From contig JAGHAJ010000128.1 in the NCBI GenBank assembly GCA_021161545.1, positions 1-18,158 on the forward strand: a DNA stretch of 18,158 nucleotides, given 5' to 3'. The notes below the pieces were generated by a model, which saw only the letters and a list, made by a program, of their open reading frames with translations, was not told where the DNA came from and ran no database searches. Position 1 is the first letter of the stretch. Each line of letters starts with the position of its first letter. Positions 874 to 14,971 of the stretch are shown piece by piece. The position numbers and the translations under genes are program-made. The DNA is from Synergistota bacterium (GTDB lineage Bacteria; Synergistota; JAGHAJ01).

Positions 874-901
874 ATTATATAGCCTATATCGGAAATGTCA
901 A
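874..901 (-). promoter_or_regulatory. Sigma-70 promoter of the racemase gene (leaderless)
   Basis: On the minus strand TTGACA (901-896) is followed after 16 bases by TATAAT (879-874). Both hexamers match consensus exactly. The last base of the -10 box lies 6 bases before the ATG at 867, so transcription should start at or within a base or two of the start codon. Confidence 0.85.
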
Positions 902-1146: not shown

Positions 1147-3192
1147 ATGCCACAGATTGATAATGATTTCATAAGAAAGGCCATAAAAGTTAGCTTAGAC
1201 GAGGATCTACCAGAATACCCAGATTTTGAACCCGGAATACCCCGAGCACCTGCAAGGCCTTTCAAACTATCAAGGGAAAAAGCAGAGGTAGCGTTAAAAA
1301 ATGCCCTTCGGTATCTCCCTGTAAACCTTCACGAAAAACTATCACCTGAGTTTATGGAAGAGCTCATCACAAGAGGAAGAATATACGCATACCGTTACCG
1401 TCCGAAAGGGAGAATATGGGGTAAACCGATAGAACAATACAAAGGGAAAATTCTGGCTGCAAAAGCCATACAAGTGATGATAGATAACAATCTCGATTTT
1501 GAGGTTGCACAATATCCATACGAACTCGTAACATATGGAGAATCTGGCAGAGTATTGCAAAACTGGTTGCAGTATAGGTTAATCAAAAAATACCTCGAAA
1601 TATTAGAAGAAAACCAGACTCTCGTCGTATATTCAGGACATCCATTAGGCATATTTAACTCACGACCAAAAGCACCCCGCGTAATAAACTCCAATGGCAT
1701 AATGGTCGGAATGTATGATAATCTCAAAGACTGGGAAATAGCAGCAGAAATGGGAGTAACAAGCTACGGCCAGATGACAGCAGGAGGATGGTTTTATATA
1801 GGTCCACAAGGTATCATCCACGGATGCTACAATCTACTGCTTCACGCCGCAAGAAAATACGGGTTATCAAGCACCAAGGATGACCTTTCAGGTGTACTAT
1901 ACATTACCGCAGGACTTGGTAGCATAAGTAGTGCTCAAGCCAAAGCAGCCCAGATATCCAACTGCGTGGCAGTTATAGCAGAAGTAAATCACGCTGCCAT
2001 AGAACGAAATCTAAAAAGAAACTGGATAGACAAAGTATCTGACAATCTTGACGAAATATTCAGAGATGTAAACCGTCACTTAGAAAGTAAAAAAGGCATA
2101 GTCATCGCATACTACGGCAACATAGTCAATCTACTCGAGTATGTAGTAAAGCACGAGATAGAGGTAAACATCTTATCAGACCAAACATCATGTCACATAC
2201 CATACGAAGGTGGATACATACCTGTAGAATTAACCTACGAAGAAACAAGAGAATTGCTCAAAAAGGATAGAACCAAGTTTAGAGAGTATGTGGACAGAAG
2301 TCTCCGAAAACACTTTCAATTTATAAAGGCACTCACCGACAGAGGAACCTACTTCTTAGAGTATGGAAATTCCATCATGCAAGCCATGTACAATGCTGGA
2401 GTAAAAGAAATTGCACGCAATGGTAAAGATACGTCTGAAGGCTTCATTTATCCAGATTTTATAGAGGCTATAACCGGCCCAGAGCTATTTGACTATGGAT
2501 ATGGGCCATTCAGATGGGTATGCTTGAGTGGAAAAGCAGAAGATCTAAGAAAAACTGACGAAGCAGCCATGTCTTGTATAGACCCCAATAAAAGCCCCCA
2601 GGACAGAGACAACTATAACTGGCTGAAGAACGCCTGGAAACACGACCTCGTTGTTGGAACAAAAGCACGCATGGTATATCAGAACTTGGAGAACAGGATA
2701 AAGATCGCATTAAAATTCAATGAGATGGTAAGAAGTGGAGAAATAGGACCTGTAATGATTGGAAGAGACCATCACGACACGGGAAGCGCAGACTGCCCCA
2801 TAAGAGAAACATCTAATATAAAAGATGGAAGTAATGTAACTGCAGACATGGCAGTGCACTGCTTTGCAGGAAACGCATCAAGAGGCATGACATTCATCTC
2901 CATAGAAAATGGAGGTGGGGTCGGAATAGGAAGAAGTCTACACACCGGTTTCGGACTCCTATTGGATGGAAGCAGATATACAGATGAAGTTATCAGAAAT
3001 GCCATAAACTGGGATGTGTCAAACGGCATAGCAAGGCGCGCCTGGGCAAGAAACACAAATTCCATCAAAGTAGCAGTAAACCACAACCTAACAACAAATG
3101 ACATTATTACACTCCCATTTCTTGCAGACAATGAAATGGTCAAAGATGTTGTTTCCTGGGCATTCAAAAAATACAACATAAAAACAGAGTAA
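1147..3192 (+). CDS. hutU: Urocanate hydratase (urocanase), long form
   Basis: Urocanase adds water to urocanate to form imidazolone propionate, using a tightly bound NAD+ as electrophile. This protein has 681 residues, against about 555 for the Pseudomonas type, and resembles the longer form of about 670-680 residues. Family motifs are visible: YGESGRVLQNW (130-140), GGWFYIGPQGIIHG (213-226), TAGLGSISSAQA (254-265), SDQTSCH (344-350) and GRDHHDTGSADCP (539-551). The long C-terminal glycine block ENGGGVGIGRSLHTG is at 587-601. Cys459 in GPFRWVCLSG is the likely equivalent of the active-site cysteine of the P. putida enzyme (Cys410). GGAGGTG sits 5 bases before the ATG. It is first in a five-gene operon, and the next gene starts 13 bases on. 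No hutH, hutI or hutG accompanies it, so it may feed an unusual urocanate route or act on a urocanate-like compound. Confidence 0.93.
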   Translation: MPQIDNDFIRKAIKVSLDEDLPEYPDFEPGIPRAPARPFKLSREKAEVALKNALRYLPVNLHEKLSPEFMEELITRGRIYAYRYRPKGRIWGKPIEQYKGKILAAKAIQVMIDNNLDFEVAQYPYELVTYGESGRVLQNWLQYRLIKKYLEILEENQTLVVYSGHPLGIFNSRPKAPRVINSNGIMVGMYDNLKDWEIAAEMGVTSYGQMTAGGWFYIGPQGIIHGCYNLLLHAARKYGLSSTKDDLSGVLYITAGLGSISSAQAKAAQISNCVAVIAEVNHAAIERNLKRNWIDKVSDNLDEIFRDVNRHLESKKGIVIAYYGNIVNLLEYVVKHEIEVNILSDQTSCHIPYEGGYIPVELTYEETRELLKKDRTKFREYVDRSLRKHFQFIKALTDRGTYFLEYGNSIMQAMYNAGVKEIARNGKDTSEGFIYPDFIEAITGPELFDYGYGPFRWVCLSGKAEDLRKTDEAAMSCIDPNKSPQDRDNYNWLKNAWKHDLVVGTKARMVYQNLENRIKIALKFNEMVRSGEIGPVMIGRDHHDTGSADCPIRETSNIKDGSNVTADMAVHCFAGNASRGMTFISIENGGGVGIGRSLHTGFGLLLDGSRYTDEVIRNAINWDVSNGIARRAWARNTNSIKVAVNHNLTTNDIITLPFLADNEMVKDVVSWAFKKYNIKTE

Positions 3193-3205
3193 GGGAGGAT
3201 ATAAA

Positions 3206-5206
3206 ATGGATTATGCTAAACTGTTTGAACCCGTAAAGATAGGAAAAATAGAGCTCAAAAACAGAATAGTAATGGCACCTATGGGACTAACAGGGCTTTC
3301 CACAACAGAAGGTGTATTTAACCAAAGAGCCATTAACTTCTTTGTGGAGCGTGCAAAAGGTGGAACAGGACTTATAATTACAGGACTAGCAAGGGTAGAA
3401 AATGAAATTGAAGAATTTGCAATGCCTTCTTCCCCTTGTCCTTTGCTAAATCCAGCAGCCTTTTACCAAACCGCAATAGAGCTTACTGAAAGAGTTCATG
3501 CATACGACACAAGGATATTCCTCCAACTCACAATGGGGTTCGGTAGGGTAGCACACCCAAGTGTGCTAAAAACTCACCCTATTGCACCCTCTGCAATTCC
3601 AAATTACTGGGAACCTAACATTACTTGCCGTGAACTATCTATAGAAGAAATCGAAACAATTATACACAAATTTGGGCAGGTTGCCATATTAGCACGTGAA
3701 AGTGGATTTGACGGCATAGAAGTGCATGCCGTCCATGAAGGCTATCTATTAGACCAGTTCGCAATATCCATGTTCAACCGTAGAAAGGATAAATACGGTG
3801 GTAGCTTAGAAAACAGGTTAAGAGCTGCCTTAGAAATAGTTAAGGAGATAAAGAAATCAGCAGGAAGAGACTTTCCTGTAATATTGAGGTACAGCCTAAA
3901 GAGCTATATAAAGGATTGGAACAAGGGAGGATTACCAAAAGAGAAGTTTAAAGAGATGGGAAGAGACATTCCTGAAGGGATAGAAGCAGCTATCTTATTA
4001 GAGAAAGGTGGTTATGATGCATTTGATGTAGATGCTGGAAGCTACGATTCATGGTATTGGGCACATCCACCTATGTATTTCGAGGATGGGAACTATCTTC
4101 CGTTCTCAAGCGAACTAAAAAAGCATACAAACGTGCCCATCATAGTCGCAGGGAAATTACAAAACCCAAAAATAGCGGAAAAAGCCATAAAAGAAGGAAA
4201 AACAGACATGATAGCGCTGGCGAGGGGATTACTTGCCGACCCGCACTGGGCAATAAAGGTAAAGAGAAAAAAGATTGACGAAATTAGGCCATGTCTTGGT
4301 TGTCATGTATGTCTCGGAAGGATAGCAAGAGGTAAGAACCTCTCGTGTGCAGTCAATCCACAAACCGGAAGAGAAAGCGACTACAATATATTATTACCCA
4401 CAAATCCCAAGAAAAAAATAGTAATAATAGGCGGTGGCATAGCTGGTATGGAGGCTGCAAGGGTAGCTGCAATGAAAGGGTACAATGTTACACTATTCGA
4501 AAAGAGTAATAGACTCGGCGGACATATCATAGCAGCATCCGTCCCCGATTTCAAAAAGGAAGATAGAACACTTCTAAGGTGGTATGAAAACAGACTAAAA
4601 GAGCAGAAAGTAGACATTAGACTCAACGAAGAAGCAGATATATCCACAATAGAAGAGGAATCCCCAGACAGCATCATAGTAGCAACAGGCTCTGTGCCAT
4701 TCATACCTCCAATAAATGGTATAAATACGGCTTCTGAGATAGTAAGCACTGCTACAGATGTACTCCTCGGAAAGCCTATACCAGGCACGCGTGTAACCAT
4801 AATCGGAGGTGGACTGGTCGGTTGTGAGCTATCCATCTGGTTGAAAAAACAGGGAAAAGAGGTAGCAATATTGGAAATGCTAAATGATATACTTCTACTC
4901 GGTGAAGTAGAGCACCCAAACAGATTGATGTTAAAAGAGATGATAGAATCCTATGGGATTCAGGTAATTACAGGCATAACTGTAACACAGATTGTCAAAG
5001 GAAGTGTGGTATTCAAAAAGGGTTCAAAAGAGCAAAAGATAGAAACGGATTTTGTAGTCTTAGCCACAGGCTTTAGAAGTCAAAATCACCTATACAAAGA
5101 GCTCTTAAAAACACCATACGAAGCCTTTGCAGTCGGAGATACACTCAAACCTTCAAACATTAAACACGCTATATGGACTGCTTATGAAGTGGCACGTAAA
5201 CTATAA
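3206..5206 (+). CDS. 2-enoate reductase-type FMN/FAD/Fe-S oxidoreductase (Old Yellow Enzyme family)
   Basis: This 666-residue flavoprotein has the 2,4-dienoyl-CoA reductase/enoate reductase architecture. An N-terminal FMN-binding TIM barrel (about 5-350) carries GIEVHAVHEGYLLDQF (170-185) and NRRKDKYGGSLENR (191-204). A [4Fe-4S] site follows, with Cys363, Cys366, Cys369 and Cys381 (C-x2-C-x2-C-x11-C). The C-terminal region holds two dinucleotide folds, GGGIAGMEAA (409-418) and GGGLVGCE (534-541), for FAD and NAD(P)H. The block DAGSYDSWYWAHPPMY (276-291) is, from memory, typical of the 2-enoate/cinnamate reductase branch. There is no cysteine near residue 30, so the covalent FMN of trimethylamine dehydrogenase is not expected. 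Such enzymes reduce C=C bonds of 2-enoates. Next to urocanase, an arylacrylate such as urocanate is an attractive substrate, but this is inferred. GGGAGG lies 7 bases before the ATG. Confidence 0.88.
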   Translation: MDYAKLFEPVKIGKIELKNRIVMAPMGLTGLSTTEGVFNQRAINFFVERAKGGTGLIITGLARVENEIEEFAMPSSPCPLLNPAAFYQTAIELTERVHAYDTRIFLQLTMGFGRVAHPSVLKTHPIAPSAIPNYWEPNITCRELSIEEIETIIHKFGQVAILARESGFDGIEVHAVHEGYLLDQFAISMFNRRKDKYGGSLENRLRAALEIVKEIKKSAGRDFPVILRYSLKSYIKDWNKGGLPKEKFKEMGRDIPEGIEAAILLEKGGYDAFDVDAGSYDSWYWAHPPMYFEDGNYLPFSSELKKHTNVPIIVAGKLQNPKIAEKAIKEGKTDMIALARGLLADPHWAIKVKRKKIDEIRPCLGCHVCLGRIARGKNLSCAVNPQTGRESDYNILLPTNPKKKIVIIGGGIAGMEAARVAAMKGYNVTLFEKSNRLGGHIIAASVPDFKKEDRTLLRWYENRLKEQKVDIRLNEEADISTIEEESPDSIIVATGSVPFIPPINGINTASEIVSTATDVLLGKPIPGTRVTIIGGGLVGCELSIWLKKQGKEVAILEMLNDILLLGEVEHPNRLMLKEMIESYGIQVITGITVTQIVKGSVVFKKGSKEQKIETDFVVLATGFRSQNHLYKELLKTPYEAFAVGDTLKPSNIKHAIWTAYEVARKL

Positions 5207-5223
5207 AAGTAGGAGGCATAATA

Positions 5224-6534
5224 TTGAAGCAAATAAAGTTTCTGAAATACAACATCGCAATTCCAGATGAGTGGGAACACATAGGCGAAGTAAAACCCCA
5301 ATATGTCAGTACATCGAAAAACCCAGAAAAGACTATTGAACATGCCTTAAATCACCCTATATCAAGCAAACCTATTCGGGATAGAAAGCTATCAGGCAAA
5401 AACATAGCAATAGTAGTAGATGATATCACAAGGCCTACCCCTACAGCAGCCATATTCCCAATGGTTTTAAAAGACCTAATATCAGCAGGAGCTTCATTGA
5501 AGAATATACATACGATTATAGCAATAGGCACGCATAGAAAACTTTCTTCCAGAGAGATTGCAGAAAGACTCGGCGTAGATGAGCTTTCCAATCTCAACGT
5601 CGAAAACCACGACTGCTTTGATGAAAGTAACTTAAAACACATAGGTAAAACAGAAAGGGGATTAGAGGTAATACTTAACCGCAAAATTACAGAAGCTGAC
5701 CTCATCATATCTATAGGAACAATAGAACCTCATTCTCTCGCAGGATTTGGAGGAGGACTGAAAAATATCATACCCGGATGTGCAGGTATCAAAACCATTA
5801 CAGCAACTCACTTATCGGGCGATGTATCCACCAGATTTGCAAATGTGGGGAAGATGGGAGAATCATGCCCCACGCGCTTGAAGATAGAAGAAGGTGCAAT
5901 GATGGTAAAAGGTGAATACTTCATCATAAACACCATCTCAACACCGGATGGCAAAATGGTTGGAGCATTTGCAGGACACCCAATAGCTGCACATAGAGAA
6001 GGATGCAAACTGGCACAAAAAGCCTACAAAATAGATATAGATACTAAGGCAGATATATTGCTCCTAAGTTCCACACCAATGGATATAGATTTCACACAGG
6101 GAACAAAGTGTTTTGCAAACTCGATAGCAGCGGCAAAGGATAATGCACTATTGATAGCATTTCTGGAAAGCAAAGAGGGTATTGGTGGGTTAACGCTACC
6201 CAAGGAGTTCTTACCTCCCCACCTTATGCAACACTTTGCAAGAGAGCTCGGAACAGAAAAGTTAATAGAGATAAGAGAAAGTTTCTCCGGGAAAATGAAG
6301 ATGTACGATAAATTTATGCAACAGATAATGTGCGAAATGTTAAAACGCCACTACATAATGGTGCATTTAGAAAATCTGCCAAATGATGCAGGAAGGAGAC
6401 TTGGCTTCTTCGAGCAATTTTCCAATACAGAGAGTTTGATGAAACGAGCAATGGAATTGGCAAGAGGCAAAAAGACCATACTTTCGCTACCTTATGCAGG
6501 TGGAAGTTATGTAGTCTACAGAAAAGGAGGTTAA
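5224..6534 (+). CDS. LarA-family nickel-pincer 2-hydroxyacid racemase/epimerase
   Basis: This 436-residue protein is a homologue of lactate racemase LarA (DUF2088), which racemises or epimerises 2-hydroxyacids by hydride transfer to a nickel-pincer (NPN) cofactor. From memory of Lactiplantibacillus LarA, the cofactor lysine (Lys184) corresponds to Lys180 in GGLKNIIPG. The catalytic and nickel-ligand histidines (108, 174, 200) correspond to His104 (GTHRK), His170 (EPHS) and His196 (ATHL). DDITRPTP (66-73) and Gln292/Lys295 are also kept, so the protein should be active. Substrate specificity within the family is broad and is not readable here. The start is TTG at 5224, chosen because AGGAGG lies 7 bases upstream. 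The cofactor-making genes larB, larC and larE are not in the window. The gene ends 2 bases before the aconitase X large-subunit gene and carries that gene's Shine-Dalgarno in its last codons. Confidence 0.88.
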   Translation: MKQIKFLKYNIAIPDEWEHIGEVKPQYVSTSKNPEKTIEHALNHPISSKPIRDRKLSGKNIAIVVDDITRPTPTAAIFPMVLKDLISAGASLKNIHTIIAIGTHRKLSSREIAERLGVDELSNLNVENHDCFDESNLKHIGKTERGLEVILNRKITEADLIISIGTIEPHSLAGFGGGLKNIIPGCAGIKTITATHLSGDVSTRFANVGKMGESCPTRLKIEEGAMMVKGEYFIINTISTPDGKMVGAFAGHPIAAHREGCKLAQKAYKIDIDTKADILLLSSTPMDIDFTQGTKCFANSIAAAKDNALLIAFLESKEGIGGLTLPKEFLPPHLMQHFARELGTEKLIEIRESFSGKMKMYDKFMQQIMCEMLKRHYIMVHLENLPNDAGRRLGFFEQFSNTESLMKRAMELARGKKTILSLPYAGGSYVVYRKGG

Positions 6535-6536
6535 AA

Positions 6537-7742
6537 ATGCAGTTAACAAGGGAAGAAGAGGCTATGCTTAACGGAAAATACGGTGAAGGCACAGCATTTG
6601 CAATGAAGGTTTTAGTTGCTATAGGAAACGCATTTGGTGCAGAGAAAATGGTAGACATATCAAGGGCACACGTAGCATTAAGCAACCAAGAGGCAGACTT
6701 GTGGTTTGTCGAGAGACTTGTAAAGGGAGGTGCAAGATGTAAAGTCCCTCCTACAGTAAATCCAGCATTTGATTTAGAGTACTTTCAAAAACATACTCAT
6801 CTATCACCAAAAGACATTGAGACCATACAAAGGACGCAAAAGGCATACAAAGAGATAGGTGCCATACTAACATACAGCTGCACACCATACTTAGAGGTAA
6901 ACATACCGAGATTCGGGGAAATAGTAGCATTTTCAGAATCGAGTGCTACTCCATACATAAACTCAGTATATGGTGCAAGGACAAATAGAGAAGCCGCCCA
7001 GAGCGCACTTTGTTCAGCAGTAACGGGAAAAACCCCGCTTTACGGATTCCTGTTAGATGAGAACAGAAAGGGAGATATACTGGTAAACGTTGAAGCAGAC
7101 ATAAAAGATGACTTTGATTACCAGTTGCTCGGCTACGCCACTCCCCCATTAGCGGGACATGGTGTACCTGTGTTTGTCAACATGCACCAGAACATAACAC
7201 CAGAACAGTTCATGAATCTTGGAGCTGAGTTAGCCACATCTGGTTCTGTAGCTCTGTACCACATAGTAGGTGTAACACCTGAAGCACCAAGTTTGGATGC
7301 CGCATTCCACGGAGAAAAGCCACAAAGAGAAATCACAATAACCAATGAGGTCCTCCAAAAAGTTCAAGAAAAGATATCAGCAAAACCTGGAAAGATAGAC
7401 TTCGCACTCTTTGGATGTCCTCATTTCACAATAAAACAAGTCAGGGAAATTGCAGAAATGGTAGCTGGCAAAACCCTAAAAGCAAAGCTGTGGATTATGA
7501 CATCTGCTCTTACAAAAGAATTAGCAAAAAAGATGGGATATCTTGAAATCATAAACGATGTAGGAGGCGATATAGTAGCAGATACATGCTGGGATCAACC
7601 CTGCTGGGAATTTTTAAGCAATAAAAGAGGTGTAACAGATTCGGCCAAGATGGCATTTTACTCCAAGAGAAGAGACATGGAGTTTATCGTCAGAAGCGTA
7701 CCAGAATGCATAGAAGCCGCTATAAAGGGGGTAGTCCAATGA
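6537..7742 (+). CDS. Aconitase X large (catalytic) subunit
   Basis: This 401-residue protein belongs to the AcnX catalytic family (DUF521), iron-dependent dehydratases whose known members are cis-3-hydroxy-L-proline dehydratase of bacteria and mevalonate-5-phosphate dehydratase of archaea. Landmarks are GARCKVPPTVNP (65-76), TYSCTPY (112-118), ESSATPYINSVYGARTNRE (134-152), GCPHFTI (293-299) and DVGGDIVADTCWDQPCW (341-357). Cysteines in these blocks (68, 115, 294, 351, 356) include the probable iron or iron-sulfur ligands; I do not assign them individually. AGGAGG precedes the ATG by 7 bases. The stop overlaps the small-subunit start as ATGA, so the two are translationally coupled and form one split enzyme. 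Known members remove a hydroxyl beta to a carboxylate. Which hydroxyacid is used here is unknown. Confidence 0.9.
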   Translation: MQLTREEEAMLNGKYGEGTAFAMKVLVAIGNAFGAEKMVDISRAHVALSNQEADLWFVERLVKGGARCKVPPTVNPAFDLEYFQKHTHLSPKDIETIQRTQKAYKEIGAILTYSCTPYLEVNIPRFGEIVAFSESSATPYINSVYGARTNREAAQSALCSAVTGKTPLYGFLLDENRKGDILVNVEADIKDDFDYQLLGYATPPLAGHGVPVFVNMHQNITPEQFMNLGAELATSGSVALYHIVGVTPEAPSLDAAFHGEKPQREITITNEVLQKVQEKISAKPGKIDFALFGCPHFTIKQVREIAEMVAGKTLKAKLWIMTSALTKELAKKMGYLEIINDVGGDIVADTCWDQPCWEFLSNKRGVTDSAKMAFYSKRRDMEFIVRSVPECIEAAIKGVVQ

Positions 7743-8164
7743 ACACAGAGAAGGTGGTATTCAAATGCCACAAGATAGGAGGAGGAAAGGCAGAAGGAGA
7801 AGCCATAGTATCTTCAGATGATATTTGTTTCTATGTAGTAGACCCCAAGACAGGCAAAGTAATTGATAAAAACCATAGTTTACAAGGTAAAAGCATTGCA
7901 AACAAAGTATTAATACTCCCAAGTGGAAAGGGCAGCTCAGTAGTGCAAGCAGACGGACTATACCAATTAGCAATGAACAACATGGCACCCAAAGCAATGA
8001 TAATAGAGCACCCTGATACTGTATTAGTCGTTAGTGCAATCATTATGGATATACCAATTGTGGATAAGGTAGATAGAAAATTCTACGAAATTATATCAGA
8101 CCATGATTGGATAGAAGTTGATGCCGATAACGAAAAGATAACCGTCATAAAGCGATCCAGCTAA
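7739..8164 (+). CDS. Aconitase X small (swivel) subunit
   Basis: This 141-residue protein is the AcnX swivel-domain subunit (DUF126), which closes over the active site of the large subunit. The block LPSGKGSS (60-67) followed by VQADGLY is the family signature, and Ser66 or Ser67 is the likely catalytic serine, corresponding to the swivel-domain serine of aconitases. The frame is open further upstream to 7706. The start is placed at ATG 7739 because it overlaps the large-subunit stop as ATGA, follows an AAAGGGGG ribosome site and gives the usual family N-terminus. This is the last gene of the operon. Its stop codon at 8162-8164 overlaps the stop of the convergent response-regulator gene at 8161-8163, and no terminator hairpin fits between them. 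Confidence 0.9.
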   Translation: MNTEKVVFKCHKIGGGKAEGEAIVSSDDICFYVVDPKTGKVIDKNHSLQGKSIANKVLILPSGKGSSVVQADGLYQLAMNNMAPKAMIIEHPDTVLVVSAIIMDIPIVDKVDRKFYEIISDHDWIEVDADNEKITVIKRSS

Positions 8165-8826
8165 ACAGATATATACCCTTTGCGAATTGCATACCGGGTA
8201 AGCTCTGCTGTATTCTTTAAGTTCATTTTTTTCATTATGTTCTGTCTATGACGGGCTACCGTATTTACACTTATATGAAGCATATCTGCAATTTCCTTGT
8301 TTATATATCCCTCAGCAAGGAGCTTGAGTACTTCTATTTCCCTAACGGTAAGCCTCTCTTTCTCGTTTTCCTTGGACCTCTCCCTAACAAGCATGTCAAT
8401 AAATGCTTCCGAAAGAACCTTCTTGATACCGGGGCCAACATAAATCCTTCCTTCAGCCACAAATCTTATCGCCCTACTAAGTTCATCAAAAGCACAATCC
8501 TTCAAAAGATACCCAGAGGCACCTGCTTTGAACATCTCCGATACCAAGTTTGCATTAGCATACATGGAAAGGGCTATAACCCTGGTAGTCCTATTCCTGT
8601 TTACTATAATCTTAGTAGCATCTATGCCATTCATTTTAGGCAACATCACATCCATCAATACTATATCTGGTTTTATATCTACAGATAAATCCACAGCTGA
8701 TACCCCATCGCTTGCTTCTGCAACCACATTCATATCCATCTGCTTATTTATAAGAGATCTCAATCCTTCCCTCAAAATCTTATGGTCATCTGCAAGCAAG
8801 ATACTATACACCTTACTCACCCTCAC
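8161..8826 (-). CDS. NarL/FixJ-family response regulator
   Basis: With a GTG start at 8826 the protein has 221 residues. The receiver domain (about 6-125) has acidic residues Asp13/Asp14, phosphoacceptor Asp59 in VLMDVMLPK, Ser87 and Lys109 in YLLKD. The LuxR-type helix-turn-helix (about 157-218) carries LTVREIEVLKLLAEGYINKE and a recognition helix around ISVNTVARHRQNI. The frame is open to 8868, but 8826 is preferred because AAGGAGG lies 6 bases upstream and the receiver fold begins right after it. A GTG at 8820 is the alternative. The gene overlaps the kinase gene by 14 bases, so the pair is coupled. It probably controls the TRAP and/or urocanase operons. The target sites are not known. Confidence 0.92.
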   Translation of the reverse strand: MRVSKVYSILLADDHKILREGLRSLINKQMDMNVVAEASDGVSAVDLSVDIKPDIVLMDVMLPKMNGIDATKIIVNRNRTTRVIALSMYANANLVSEMFKAGASGYLLKDCAFDELSRAIRFVAEGRIYVGPGIKKVLSEAFIDMLVRERSKENEKERLTVREIEVLKLLAEGYINKEIADMLHISVNTVARHRQNIMKKMNLKNTAELTRYAIRKGYISV

Positions 8827-9937
8827 CACCTTCCTCCTTACACCCATCAAAAGCACAAGCAGGAACATACAAAGTTACAGTTGTCCCCTTATATTCACGA
8901 GAACTCACAGTGACATATCCTCCTATGAGCTTCAATGTCTCTTGCAGAGCAAACAAGCCGTAGCATTGTTTCTCCACCGCATTCGACTCAAGTGTATCAA
9001 CGTCAAAACCACGGCCAGAATCCCTAACCTCCATAACGATCATTCCAGTGTCATCAAGTGCAACTTTTACCTCTGCAAAAGCAGTCTTCGCATGCTTAAC
9101 TACATTCATCAAAAGCTCCCGAAGTGCCCGAAATAAAAATGCTTCTAACTCCATAGACAAACCCTTAGGTAACTCACCATACACGTACCTAACTTCAAGT
9201 CCATACCTATTGTAGAACTTATCCTTAAGCCACGATAGAGTTGCCTCAAAACCCAACTGATACAGAATAGGTATGCCTAAATCAAATGTTAAATCCTTCG
9301 TAGATTGGATACTATCATCTATGGCAGAGATGACCTTCCTTATCTGAAGACTGAGCGACTCATTGTTTTTCACATCTTCACACAACATCTGAAGTTTCAA
9401 TTTAGAGAATGCCAAGTTCTGTCCAATAGAGTCGTGTATCTTCTGAGCCACACGGCGTCTTTCCTTTTCTCGCTCTCTGGCAAGTGCAGCAGAAAGGCTT
9501 TGCAACTTCTTGAGATATTGCTGTTCCCTCTTACGTGCCTCACTAATCTCTGTAATATCAAGAAATGCCCCTATTAACCCTGCAACATTACCACTCTCAT
9601 CAAAGAAGACCGTCTTATTCAGTATGACCGTATGATATGTGCCATCGTGGTGAAGTATCTTCCTCTCATCAGAAGTAAATCCCCCTTCAGCAAGCAGCTT
9701 CTTATCACGCTCAAAGAGCTCTTCTGCTTGATCTGGATGCACAACATCAAGCACCATCCTGAATAGAATATCTTCTACATCCTTTCCCATAAACTCTGCA
9801 TATGCCTTATTACACCCCAGATATCTACCATTTACATCTTCATAAAATATGGGTATAGGCACAACATCGAGTAATCTTTGGAAAAAATCCTTCCTCTGAA
9901 ATACTTTCAGTATTTTATTAACATCATCTGATACCAT
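8813..9937 (-). CDS. Soluble PAS-domain sensor histidine kinase (HisKA_3 type)
   Basis: This 374-residue protein has no membrane segment or signal peptide and should be cytoplasmic. A PAS domain spans about 15-130. A short coiled coil (about 132-160) leads to the HisKA_3 dimerisation domain with phospho-accepting His168 in AQKIHDSIGQNL. The HATPase domain shows an N-box around Asn278 (RELLMNVVKHA), the G1 box DSGRGF (306-311) and a G2 box near YGLFALQE (326-333). HisKA_3 kinases pair with NarL-type regulators, matching the next gene. The ATG at 9937 has GAGGAG 6 bases upstream. It lies 50 bases after the TRAP permease gene in the same orientation. The PAS domain is the likely sensor, perhaps for an imported substrate, a pathway product or redox state. 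The ligand is not predictable. Confidence 0.93.
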   Translation of the reverse strand: MVSDDVNKILKVFQRKDFFQRLLDVVPIPIFYEDVNGRYLGCNKAYAEFMGKDVEDILFRMVLDVVHPDQAEELFERDKKLLAEGGFTSDERKILHHDGTYHTVILNKTVFFDESGNVAGLIGAFLDITEISEARKREQQYLKKLQSLSAALAREREKERRRVAQKIHDSIGQNLAFSKLKLQMLCEDVKNNESLSLQIRKVISAIDDSIQSTKDLTFDLGIPILYQLGFEATLSWLKDKFYNRYGLEVRYVYGELPKGLSMELEAFLFRALRELLMNVVKHAKTAFAEVKVALDDTGMIVMEVRDSGRGFDVDTLESNAVEKQCYGLFALQETLKLIGGYVTVSSREYKGTTVTLYVPACAFDGCKEEGGEGE

Positions 9938-9987
9938 TGAGCTCTCCTCACATACTCTTCAAAGTCCTCCTATTTCAATATTATATC

Positions 9988-11280
9988 TTACCGAAACAAG
10001 AGATCCACCAAACATGTGCTAAGAGAGGGAGCATAAGTCACAAGAATAAGCACCATCACAAGTACAACGAAAAACGGGATAACCTTCCTTGAGATTACTT
10101 CCATTCTCACATTAGAAATGGCAGAAGCCACAAAGAGATTCGGGCCATAAGGTGGAGTTATAAATCCCAAGGTCAGGGCTATTGTCATTATAACACCAAA
10201 ATGCACTGGATCTATACCCATCCTCTTAATAACAGGAAGCAATATTGGCGTAAGAATAATCGTAGAGGAAAAGTTATCTATGAAGCAGCCTATAACTAAC
10301 AAGAAAAGATTAATAACAAGCAGAATAACAAGTGGATTTGATGATACTCCAAGCAAGACATTTACTATCTGCACCGGTATACGCTCTATGGTTAGATACC
10401 TTGCAAACGTCATGGAAAGACCTATCATAAATATCACTGCACCTGTGATCTTAGCAGTATCCCTAAAGGCTTCATATATACTCTTCCACGTCAATTCCCT
10501 GTATATAAAAAGACCTATCACTATAGAGTAAACTACAGAAATACCACCAGCTTCAGTAGGTGTAAATATTCCTCCATATATACCACCAAGTATTATCACA
10601 GGTACAAGAAGTGCCCAAAAAGCCCTCCTAAAGGATATCCAAACTTGCTTGAATGATGGCTTTTCAAAACTTCTCACATACCCCCTCTTCTTGGAAACAA
10701 AATAAGAGATTATCATCAATGACAATCCCATGATAATCCCAGGGATAACACCAGCAACAAACAGCTTACCTATGGAAACCTGTGCTACTATACCATACAC
10801 AACGAATGAGATACTCGGCGGAATTATTACGCCTATACAACCCGCTGCTGCAGTCAAAGCTGTGGCGAAAGCGCGGTCATACTTCCTCTTTTCCATCTCA
10901 GGGATCATAAAGCTACCAATAGCAGAGACCGTGGCAGTGCTGGAGCCAGAGATTGCACTAAAAAACATACACGCCAGAACTGTTACCATAGCGAGCCCAC
11001 CGGTCACAAAGCCAACTATGCTATCTGCAAGGTCTATCAATCTCTTCGATACCCCTCCAACACCCATGAGGACACCTGCAAGTATGAAAAGAGGAATTGC
11101 CAACAATGGAAAGGAGTTTAAAGCCGTAAAAGATCTCTGTGCAATAATCACCAGAGGGATACTACTTGTGAAATACATTATTACTGCAGTGGCCACTCCT
11201 ATAGAAACACCTATCGGAACGCCCAAAACCAAGCACGCAAGCAGCAACAAGAATAATATTGTCACATCCACACTACTCAC
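9988..11280 (-). CDS. dctM: TRAP transporter large membrane subunit (DctM)
   Basis: This 430-residue integral membrane protein has about twelve hydrophobic segments and is the sodium-coupled translocating subunit of a tripartite (TRAP) carboxylate transporter. Family landmarks are FFSAISGSSTATVSAIG (106-122), CIGVIIPPSISFVVYG (148-163) and, near the C-terminus, the second related block around GFITPPYGPNLFV. Length matches DctM (about 425). The start is a GTG at 11280 overlapping the end of dctQ by 8 bases. Its Shine-Dalgarno is weak, which suits translational coupling. A GTG nine bases further in is an alternative. The sequence shows a TRAP system but not its substrate. Confidence 0.95.
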   Translation of the reverse strand: MSSVDVTILFLLLLACLVLGVPIGVSIGVATAVIMYFTSSIPLVIIAQRSFTALNSFPLLAIPLFILAGVLMGVGGVSKRLIDLADSIVGFVTGGLAMVTVLACMFFSAISGSSTATVSAIGSFMIPEMEKRKYDRAFATALTAAAGCIGVIIPPSISFVVYGIVAQVSIGKLFVAGVIPGIIMGLSLMIISYFVSKKRGYVRSFEKPSFKQVWISFRRAFWALLVPVIILGGIYGGIFTPTEAGGISVVYSIVIGLFIYRELTWKSIYEAFRDTAKITGAVIFMIGLSMTFARYLTIERIPVQIVNVLLGVSSNPLVILLVINLFLLVIGCFIDNFSSTIILTPILLPVIKRMGIDPVHFGVIMTIALTLGFITPPYGPNLFVASAISNVRMEVISRKVIPFFVVLVMVLILVTYAPSLSTCLVDLLFR

Positions 11281-11755
11281 CCACTTCTCTCTGTGTCTTT
11301 ACTACTCTTATAATCTCTGCAACCAACCTTATACCCATAAGTGTAGCTCCAGCAGGTATAGCAGCATATGCGTACCCCATGGGAATGCGCATAGCTATGG
11401 AAAGCTCCCCATGGCTAAGAAGGAAGATCACAAGCTTTGTTCCCGTCCATACCAGAAAGAGACAAAAAGAAAACCATATCAGTACAGAAGCCATCTCAAG
11501 TACCCTTCTCACCGCACCATGAAATCTTTCAAGGACAAACAGGATTTTGAGGTGTGAACCCTGTTTAACAGCAAAACTTGTGCCAACCCACGCCTCCCAT
11601 ATAAACACATAAGTACACAGCTCCTGAACCCATGCTGGAGAGAAATAAAAGATGTATCTCATTATAACCTGCGCAAAAACCAGAGCTACGATAAACATCA
11701 GTCCACCTACAAGGAGATACTCTTCTAATTTATTAAAGAAATTCCTTATCCCCAT
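11273..11755 (-). CDS. dctQ: TRAP transporter small membrane subunit (DctQ)
   Basis: This 160-residue protein has four hydrophobic segments (about 14-37, 44-62, 88-112 and 127-148), as in DctQ. The DctQ hallmarks are the basic residue after helix one (Arg33), the WVQEL and FIWEAW stretch and AVKQGSHLKI (62-71). It pairs with DctM in the membrane and contacts the solute-binding protein. GGAGG lies 6 bases before the ATG. It starts 43 bases after the dctP stop and overlaps dctM by 8 bases, giving the usual P-Q-M order. Confidence 0.94.
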   Translation of the reverse strand: MGIRNFFNKLEEYLLVGGLMFIVALVFAQVIMRYIFYFSPAWVQELCTYVFIWEAWVGTSFAVKQGSHLKILFVLERFHGAVRRVLEMASVLIWFSFCLFLVWTGTKLVIFLLSHGELSIAMRIPMGYAYAAIPAGATLMGIRLVAEIIRVVKTQREVGE

Positions 11756-11798
11756 CTGTATCCTCCAAACTTCAGAGTGGCCACCTTAAAATGCTCAA

Positions 11799-12782
11799 TC
11801 ATTCAAATATGGAATCAAATAACTCACGCCCAAGCTTATTACGGAGCCTGTCATATACACCTCTTGCTGCCTTGGCAAAGACCTTCTTCTCAGCAGAAGT
11901 CAGCTTATTTACTATCATCCCTTTTTCCTTCAGTATCTCCAAATCCTTTTTCTCCCTTCTATTACAAATATCCCTCTGAGCATTCCTAAATTTTACAGCT
12001 CCATCCTCCAATACTTTCTGCAAGTCCTTAGGCAGAGATTTAAAGAACTTTTCACTCACCAAGACCGATATGCTCGCGTATGTGTGAGCTGTAAGAGAGA
12101 GGTACTTTTGAACCTCGTAAAATTTTAATGCCTTAATCACAAAAACAGGATTATCCTCCCCATCAACAACGCCCTGCTGAAGCGCAGAATAAAGCTCCGA
12201 AAATGCCAAAGGTGTAGGACTTGCACCCCATGTCCTGAACATATCCATATAGGTTGGTGCCCTCATAACCCTTATCTTTAATCCTCTTAAATCCTTCGGG
12301 CTATGTATAGGACGACGATTATTCGTAATATGCCTAAACCCTATCTCTGCAAACGCAAGACTCCTCAGACCATGCTTGGGTAAATAACTAACAAGTTTTT
12401 TACCCTTTGGGCCATCAAGCATCTGGTAAGCCTGATTCTTCGTCATAAAGAGATACGGCAAATCCAATATTTGCAAAGCAGGTTCAAACGAGGCCAAAAT
12501 AGCAGTTGCCGGCAGACACATCTCAAGTGAACCAAGTTGAAGTGATTCAATCGTTTCACTATCACCACCAAGTTGGCCTGCAGGATAAAGCTCAACCTTT
12601 ATCCTACCTCCAGAAGCCTTCTCAACATAAGGTTTGAACACTTGTCGCATTGCCACATCATGCGGGTACCCTACAGGAACTACATACGCTACTTTTAGCC
12701 TATATTGTGTAGCACCAAAAGCAGGTAAAACCATAGCCCCTAATAAACCAATAACTAAACACCCTACTAACACTTTCCTCAC
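11799..12782 (-). CDS. dctP: TRAP transporter solute-binding protein (DctP)
   Basis: With the GTG start at 12782 the protein has 327 residues. It has a clean signal peptide: MRK, a hydrophobic core and probable cleavage after Ala-Phe-Gly at about residue 23. The mature DctP-fold protein binds the substrate outside the membrane. Motifs include ELYPAGQLGGD (64-74), GFRHITNN (148-155), LRGLKIRVM (165-173) and GVVDGEDNP (204-212). Arg150 and Arg171 are candidate carboxylate ligands; one arginine of this kind makes the salt bridge to the ligand in the family. The frame can be read from a GTG at 12800, but 12782 is preferred because GGAGG lies 8 bases upstream and the signal peptide then starts normally. 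As the first gene of the P-Q-M-kinase-regulator operon it has its own promoter region. The ligand is probably an organic acid related to the urocanase operon, but this is inferred. Confidence 0.94.
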   Translation of the reverse strand: MRKVLVGCLVIGLLGAMVLPAFGATQYRLKVAYVVPVGYPHDVAMRQVFKPYVEKASGGRIKVELYPAGQLGGDSETIESLQLGSLEMCLPATAILASFEPALQILDLPYLFMTKNQAYQMLDGPKGKKLVSYLPKHGLRSLAFAEIGFRHITNNRRPIHSPKDLRGLKIRVMRAPTYMDMFRTWGASPTPLAFSELYSALQQGVVDGEDNPVFVIKALKFYEVQKYLSLTAHTYASISVLVSEKFFKSLPKDLQKVLEDGAVKFRNAQRDICNRREKKDLEILKEKGMIVNKLTSAEKKVFAKAARGVYDRLRNKLGRELFDSIFE

Positions 12783-12883
12783 GGCACACACCTCCATCAC
12801 AATTTAGTAAAAACCCATTTTTAGGATAACATTCAGAAGTTGAAAAACTATACTATATATAGGTAGAAGATAAAGGAAAAGCG

Positions 12884-12930: not shown

Positions 12931-12962
12931 AAAAAAGCCCCAGCGGAGAAGCTGGGGCTTTT
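12931..12962 (-). terminator. Rho-independent terminator of groS-groL
   Basis: Read on the minus strand, GCCCCAGC and GCTGGGGC form an 8-base GC-rich stem, extended by A-T pairs, around a 6-base loop. A run of six T follows. It lies 19 bases after the groL stop, between groL and the dctP promoter. Confidence 0.95.
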
Positions 12963-14944: not shown

Positions 14945-14971
14945 TTAGCACTCACTACTATCGAGTGCTAA
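14945..14971. promoter_or_regulatory. CIRCE operator (HrcA binding site) of groS-groL
   Basis: TTAGCACTC (14945-14953), a 9-base spacer and GAGTGCTAA (14963-14971) match the CIRCE inverted repeat without mismatch. It lies between the predicted transcription start and the groS ribosome site, where bound HrcA represses the operon in the absence of heat stress. The hrcA gene itself is not in the window. Confidence 0.98.

Follow-up and report, generated by a model that had tools for sequence, protein, structure and literature searches.

A candidate imidazolelactate and urocanate catabolic locus with a hut-linked aconitase X in a Synergistota bacterium

Organization of the locus and its two conserved units

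The window analyzed here (the whole stretch of DNA, 18,158 nucleotides) is one complete contig, JAGHAJ010000128.1, from the draft genome of a Synergistota bacterium (assembly GCA_021161545.1; 1.58 Mb, 82% complete). It carries a urocanase paralogue (Uro2), a flavoprotein of the old yellow enzyme (OYE)/2-enoate reductase type, a LarA-type racemase, and a two-subunit aconitase X (AcnX), together with genes for a tripartite ATP-independent periplasmic (TRAP) transporter and a two-component system (Table 1). The preliminary description of this DNA had treated the five tightly spaced plus-strand genes and the convergent genes as one module, in which imidazolelactate would be racemized, dehydrated to urocanate, and then either reduced or hydrated. 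Open reading frame (ORF) translations and Pfam/NCBIfam profile scans revealed that all of the genes named there were present and intact. The spacing was also as described: the five plus-strand genes were separated by gaps of 13, 17, and 2 bp followed by a 4-bp overlap, and a GGAGG-like ribosome-binding site was found ahead of each. The small subunit of AcnX starts at an ATG with a good ribosome-binding site at 7739, and the ORF listed by the program begins at 7706. The TRAP and two-component genes on the minus strand converge on this group, and the response regulator gene overlaps the AcnX small-subunit gene tail to tail by 4 bp. DctP, DctQ, and DctM were all encoded together, as in a TRAP transporter. 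The GC content of the locus genes was 0.38-0.43, and with no break in GC or gene spacing, there was no sign of a chimeric contig. A second urocanase, a standard HutU followed by FTCD and HutI, was located on another contig of the same genome, which stops inside HutI.

The locus is composed of two units, each conserved on its own, with the junction between the reductase and LarA. Unit A, consisting of the two-component pair, Uro2, and the enoate reductase, usually with TRAP genes, was found in four other genomes of the phylum (G006, G032, G038, and G080), in each of which the reductase was downstream of Uro2 and the kinase-regulator pair was beside Uro2. TRAP genes adjoined unit A in three of the four, with up to 82% identity to those of the window, and neither LarA nor AcnX was next to it in any of them. 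The response regulator was 57-74% identical to its counterparts adjoining Uro2 in four other genomes, and the sensor kinase 42-65% identical to the kinases beside Uro2, while DctP was 80% identical to the G006 protein beside Uro2-OYE and 39-51% identical to those beside AcnX elsewhere. Unit B, a 2-hydroxyacid racemase or dehydrogenase with AcnX, was found in other bacteria inside hut operons; elsewhere in the window's phylum, the neighbor of AcnX was LarA, LarAH22, or a D-2-hydroxyacid dehydrogenase, and TRAP genes were often present too. Among the genomes surveyed, the two units were joined in one operon only in the window, and urocanase, OYE, LarA, and AcnX were not found together in another genome. 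No close relative of the window LarA was found elsewhere in 185 genomes of the phylum. With units A and B recurring apart, a five-gene module conserved as such was rejected.

Table 1. Genes of the locus, with positions in the window
Feature	Position	Strand	Supporting matches
Uro2, long-form urocanase paralogue, 681 aa	1147..3192	+	PF17391/PF01175/PF17392 and TIGR01228 above cut-off
OYE/2-enoate-reductase-type flavoprotein, FMN, FAD and [4Fe-4S], 666 aa	3206..5206	+	PF00724 and PF07992
LarA superfamily nickel-pincer 2-hydroxyacid racemase, 436 aa, TTG start	5224..6534	+	PF09861
AcnX type II large subunit, 401 aa, hut-linked clade B	6537..7742	+	PF04412, 450 bits; 7cnr_A E=1e-72
AcnX type II small (swivel) subunit, 141 aa	7739..8164	+	PF01989; 7cnr_B E=8e-25
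LuxR/NarL-type response regulator	8161..8868	-	PF00072 and PF00196
PAS-HisKA_3 sensor histidine kinase	8813..9937	-	PF08448, PF07730, PF02518
DctM, TRAP large permease	9988..11280	-	TIGR00786; 81% identical to G006
DctQ, TRAP small permease	11273..11755	-	PF04290
DctP, TRAP solute-binding protein	11799..12800	-	PF03480, TIGR00787

AcnX and its association with urocanase

The separate large and small subunits, together with the cluster cysteines and the catalytic Ser, Glu, Lys, and Tyr identified by alignment to solved structures, placed the AcnX of the window in type II. The equivalent of the general base Ser62 was located in the GKGSS motif of the small subunit (compared with 7cnr_B), and the large subunit kept the equivalents of the Glu, Lys, and Tyr residues and of the three cluster Cys residues. 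Asp203, the substrate-nitrogen residue of the hydroxyproline enzyme, corresponded to Ala47, and the scores against NF051439 were 241 and 68 (cut-off 700), so that hydroxyproline dehydratase was rejected as an assignment. Mevalonate 5-phosphate dehydratase (type IIb) was rejected as well, as the phosphate loop of that enzyme (Gly48-Val49-Ser50-Asn53 of TkAcnX) was shortened by a three-residue deletion and replaced by LSNQEAD. Membership of the same family and the shared catalytic residues would suit either known activity, but with the landmark residues for cis-3-hydroxyproline and for mevalonate phosphate both absent, and with no proline or mevalonate genes noticed in the AcnX loci, it is extremely improbable that the window AcnX carries out hydroxyproline or mevalonate-phosphate dehydration. 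The 2021 structure paper listed subclasses IIc-IIf, which have no landmark residues of either known function, as awaiting functional characterization (PMC8184944). In the phylogenetic tree, the window AcnX grouped with all hut-linked AcnX proteins (clade B) with a support of 94/95, just under the star threshold of the tool. The loop HVALSNQ(E/D)AD was present in the intact clade B proteins covering this region (HVALSNQEAD in the window), and clade A contained HVALSGQEGD.

Three other AcnX loci showed distinct features. The large subunit at L075 (8496-9701, genome G029) was without the catalytic Glu (SESSAT changed to AASGAS) and the PCW cysteine, and is probably degenerate; this genome has a histidase. 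At L233 (4981-12882, genome G191), a second, more distant AcnX pair was flanked by two histidase/ammonia-lyase-like genes and accompanied by a transporter gene and a 3-hydroxyacyl-CoA-dehydrogenase-like gene; this AcnX possibly acts on another aryl-lactate or arylacrylate. At L069 (1-6600, genome G058), a clade A AcnX-LarA pair adjoined GlcD and two proteins resembling electron-transfer flavoprotein (ETF) subunits, which suggests that an ETF-linked dehydrogenase oxidizes a 2-hydroxyacid there.

AcnX proteins 56-67% identical to that of the window were located near standard urocanase in Propionispira arboris, Propionispora sp., and a Lachnospiraceae genome. In P. arboris and Propionispora, where the identity was 57-67%, AcnX was part of the hut operon, and the genes were closely spaced on one strand. 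The order in P. arboris was RpiR, a carbamoylase-like protein, a HutF-like protein, the AcnX large subunit, the AcnX small subunit, a D-2-hydroxyacid dehydrogenase, a solute-binding protein, HutU, HutI, a permease, an ATPase, and HutD. The Propionispora operon has a second dehydrogenase as well as IorAB and a CoA ligase; the names given to HutD, RpiR, the ATPase, and the CoA ligase come from sequence alone. IorAB, an arylpyruvate oxidoreductase, and an ADP-forming CoA ligase were found near several clade B AcnX loci. Two of the hut operons with AcnX (L152, 2480-5101, and L145, 2718-5177) also encoded a HutF-like deiminase and a hydrolase near ErtE (the model for N-carbamyl-glutamate amidohydrolase), neither of which reached the cut-off of its specific model.

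AcnX of this kind was present in 19 of 380 Negativicutes genomes. HutU was found in all 19, compared with 70 of the 380 overall (hypergeometric 1e-15, relatedness ignored), and was located 3-9 kb from AcnX in 15 of them. All seven Negativicutes genomes with HutU and without a gene of the HutH (histidase) family contained AcnX (p=4e-5, relatedness uncorrected). In a sample of 61 genomes of the window's phylum, 41 had HutU, and the only two of these without HutH, the window genome and G041, were exactly the two with an intact clade B AcnX (p=0.004, even with the degenerate copy of G029 included). The Lachnospiraceae genome G187 also had AcnX and urocanase with no HutH. Across Negativicutes, Lachnospiraceae, and the window's phylum, AcnX was thus carried by 10 of the 10 genomes that were positive for urocanase and negative for histidase. 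Among 291 Clostridia, AcnX of this kind was found only in the genome already known.

A 2-hydroxyacid enzyme was found near AcnX in 19 of the 22 clade B loci, window included. It was a D-2-hydroxyacid dehydrogenase, LarAH22 (above the cut-off of NF052515 in every neighbor scanned), or another LarA, and these enzymes substituted for one another, a pattern that would follow if all of them served to present a single 2-hydroxyacid to AcnX in the correct form. The core of the preliminary proposal, the path from LarA and AcnX through urocanate to urocanase, received strong and independent support from the presence of AcnX of the window's clade in hut operons, beside D-2-hydroxyacid dehydrogenases or LarA-type racemases, and in all of the histidase-negative urocanase genomes. 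The dehydration of imidazolelactate to urocanate by AcnX is the most certain step of the proposal, and we consider it a good deal more probable than its negation.

It is rather unlikely, by comparison, that AcnX and LarA (or the D-2-hydroxyacid dehydrogenase) act on some other 2-hydroxyacid, an aryl-lactate or a malate-like compound, that merely shares regulation with hut, with two unrelated catabolic units in one operon of the window. A shared operon need not mean a shared pathway; clade A AcnX with LarA or a D-2-hydroxyacid dehydrogenase and TRAP genes occurred away from hut, also in genomes with histidase, and the top score of the window LarA was to the malate racemase LarAH6, though below the cut-off. 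However, clade B AcnX was always accompanied by urocanase, mostly inside a hut operon, every histidase-negative urocanase genome found had it, and the predicted substrate loop differed between the clades (SGQEGD in clade A and SNQ[ED]AD in clade B), so clade A does not have to use the same substrate. AcnX could also act downstream of the hut pathway, where glutamate would be converted through 2-oxoglutarate to 2-hydroxyglutarate by the dehydrogenase or racemase and then to glutaconate, in a CoA-free form of hydroxyglutarate fermentation. Some Negativicutes ferment glutamate, and the neighboring D-2-hydroxyacid dehydrogenase and the LarA groups would fit 2-hydroxyglutarate, for which LarAH7 is a racemase (PMC7583248). 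This route is improbable: it leaves the absence of histidase in AcnX genomes unexplained, 2-hydroxyglutarate has no adjacent carboxylate or ring to acidify its C3 hydrogen, and the IorAB neighbors point to aryl pyruvates instead.

The racemase, the flavoprotein, and Uro2

The window LarA kept the equivalents of the catalytic residues His108 and His174 and of Lys184 and His200, which bind the nickel-pincer nucleotide (NPN), and LarC for the nickel cofactor was present in the genome, consistent with a 2-hydroxyacid racemase of the LarA superfamily. It fitted no named LarA group in the NCBIfam scan. The best models were LarAH6, malate racemase (262.6, cut-off 500), and LarAH10, hydrophobic 2-hydroxyacid racemase (251.6, cut-off 540), and both assignments were rejected as the scores were below the curated cut-offs. 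The LarAH6, LarAH10, and LarAH22 groups share the catalytic His and NPN-binding residues with the window LarA, which belongs to none of them. LarAH10 racemizes aryl-lactates (PMC7583248, PMC11770544); the main texts of two surveys of LarA substrates made no mention of imidazole compounds.

The reductase contains a TIM-barrel FMN domain, a four-Cys motif (CxxCxxC-x11-C), and an NAD(P)H/FAD domain, the features of the 2-enoate reductase/OYE type, and its solved relatives were 6qkg and the E. coli 2,4-dienoyl-CoA reductase 1ps9. No characterized family scored above the cut-off in the NCBIfam scan. The nearest models, bilirubin reductase long form, BaiCD, and mycofactocin OYE2, were all far below it and were rejected. 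Orthologues were present in 10 of 185 genomes of the phylum, and no substrate hints were found among the neighbors of homologues located away from Uro2 (L221-L223 and L225). Reduction of urocanate to imidazolepropionate by this flavoprotein is proposed tentatively, as the least certain step, and is less probable than not.

Uro2 was 65-77% identical to four paralogues in other genomes and 55-63% identical to standard HutU, and its best solved relative was 6uek. A total of 28 fixed substitutions separated it from standard urocanases, and 27 of the 144 positions invariant among the sampled standard urocanases varied in the Uro2 group, including the NAD loop, where GLGGMSGAQ was changed to G(L/I)GS(I/M)SSAQ, and the Asp about 23 residues past this glycine-rich loop, a position that often sets NAD versus NADP in Rossmann folds. 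Residues 256-281 of Uro2 (window 1912-1989) contained the fingerprint GS[IM]SSAQ, with Asp281 replaced by Asn/Arg across the paralogues, which makes a cofactor switch possible. As a divergent paralogue with an altered NAD+ loop, Uro2 should not be assumed to have urocanase activity. Thiourocanate hydratase and S-methyl-thiourocanate hydratase were rejected as assignments (scores of 292 and 325, cut-offs of 930 and 880).

These changes bear on whether Uro2 and the OYE flavoprotein act on a substrate other than urocanate, such as a modified imidazole or another arylacrylate, with the TRAP transporter and two-component system for its uptake and sensing and LarA-AcnX supplying the compound from a hydroxyacid. 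We regard this as unlikely, if less so than either alternative for AcnX given above; it concerns unit A and is compatible with the imidazolelactate reading of AcnX. Unit A was also found in genomes with standard HutU and histidase, where a second urocanase needs a reason, and known urocanase paralogues act on thiourocanates, as represented in NCBIfam models; the fixed substitutions, among them those of the NAD+ loop and a Cys550/His599 pair, point in the same direction, as does the changed Rossmann Asp281. On the other hand, Uro2 scored 415.9 on TIGR01228, the hutU equivalog (cut-off 375), fell far below the thiourocanate hydratase cut-offs, and retained the YGE, GQMTAG, and GPFRW motifs.

Outside the locus, an aspartate/cysteate-racemase-like gene on the minus strand (160-867) scored above the CuyB cut-off, and a promoter that matches the sigma-70 consensus perfectly, TTGACA-16-TATAAT, was located ahead of it (874-901, minus strand). 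A perfect CIRCE (controlling inverted repeat of chaperone expression) element, TTAGCACTC-N9-GAGTGCTAA, covered the groES start (14945-14971), and HrcA control of groESL is therefore likely. A strong terminator-like hairpin of 12 pairs, 7 of them G-C, followed groEL on the minus strand (12933-12962) and divides it from the TRAP genes.

Proposed pathway and relation to known systems

The locus as a whole is best explained as a catabolic operon of an anaerobic bacterium for imidazolelactate (and urocanate), a reading that we hold to be moderately probable, in which a LarA-AcnX unit would have been placed behind an existing urocanase-reductase unit. The TRAP transporter would take up the substrate, probably an imidazole acid, which the two-component pair probably senses. 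LarA would interconvert D- and L-imidazolelactate and so supply the enantiomer used by AcnX; in other genomes, the D-2-hydroxyacid dehydrogenase would adjust the stereochemistry or connect to imidazolepyruvate. In AcnX, the Fe-S cluster would bind the α-hydroxycarboxylate and the small-subunit Ser would take the C3 proton, which may be acidified by the imidazolium ring, to give urocanate. This step would take the place of histidase in feeding the urocanate pathway. Urocanate would then be hydrated by Uro2 and/or the standard HutU and converted by HutI and FTCD to glutamate, and the OYE flavoprotein may reduce a part of it, which would serve as an electron sink. The substrate, reaction direction, stereochemistry, and transporter ligand are predictions built on the observed gene content, conserved units, co-occurrence with urocanase, the 10 genomes in which no histidase was found, and the catalytic residues.

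Several observations weigh against this reading. Twelve AcnX-positive Negativicutes also carry a histidase-family gene, and AcnX is therefore not strictly a replacement for histidase. The window genome is incomplete and its hut contig ends in HutI, so that its histidase may have been lost in an assembly gap; G041, at 96% completeness, is less open to this doubt. The genomes come from several lineages with close relatives among them and are not independent, so the probabilities given above overstate the evidence and serve as a guide only. Three clade B loci (L075, L206, and L210) had no adjacent 2-hydroxyacid enzyme, and clade A AcnX co-occurs with histidase in the phylum and may use another hydroxyacid. 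The TRAP genes of the window were closest to those beside Uro2-OYE without AcnX, and their ligand may therefore be urocanate rather than imidazolelactate. Finally, known AcnX substrates bear a β-hydroxyl, whereas the hydroxyl of imidazolelactate is α to the carboxylate, a weak point that the preliminary description had itself raised. The difference stands, but the obstacle is smaller than was supposed: aconitase binds isocitrate through the α-hydroxycarboxylate at the open iron and removes a hydroxyl that is α to one carboxylate. What is required is an acidified neighboring C-H, which the imidazolium could supply.

Slightly more probable than not is a broader proposal, in which one AcnX type II subclass is an imidazolelactate dehydratase that provides a histidase-free entry to urocanate in Negativicutes, Lachnospiraceae, and the window's phylum at the least, fed by LarA or a D-2-hydroxyacid dehydrogenase, and is wired in the window to a cofactor-altered Uro2 and an OYE flavoprotein that possibly makes imidazolepropionate by a route other than UrdA. 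Nothing relevant was found in the literature on imidazolelactate with urocanate and dehydratase, or on aconitase X with lactate racemase. A candidate substrate would thereby be available for one of the functionally uncharacterized subclasses IIc-IIf (PMC8184944), and the assay is easy, as urocanate absorbs near 277 nm. If true, the proposal would account for urocanase genomes without histidase, add a dehydration of a free 2-hydroxyacid that needs neither CoA nor radical chemistry, and connect imidazolelactate, which fermenting bacteria form from histidine, with urocanate and perhaps also with imidazolepropionate, a metabolite of the gut that PMC7921117 associates with type 2 diabetes.

The locus appears as a variant of histidine/urocanate catabolism assembled from known families, with one enzyme function that is probably new. 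The archaeal mevalonate 5-phosphate dehydratase 7cnr and the type IIa hydroxyproline dehydratases share two subunits, the Ser base, Glu, Lys, Tyr, and three Cys with the window AcnX, which differs from them in its substrate loop and has the landmark residues of neither. UrdA is of the fumarate-reductase type, unlike the window enzyme, which is of the OYE/2-enoate reductase type; the two would share the product imidazolepropionate if the window flavoprotein reduces urocanate. The clostridial route from phenyllactate through cinnamate to phenylpropionate, in which an aryl-lactate is converted to an arylacrylate and then to an arylpropionate, follows the same logic and uses an OYE-type enoate reductase as in the window. 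However, the window locus has no CoA-transferase or radical 2-hydroxyacyl-CoA dehydratase, and dehydration of the free acid by an aconitase-type enzyme is predicted instead. UrdA is the flavin enzyme that has been described for the reduction of urocanate (PMC10882135). With the classical Hut pathway (HutH-HutU-HutI with FTCD or HutF), the host shares urocanase, imidazolonepropionase, and FTCD, with urocanate as the predicted node; in contrast to that pathway, no histidase was found in the host, and urocanate is predicted to be derived from imidazolelactate through AcnX and a 2-hydroxyacid racemase or dehydrogenase.

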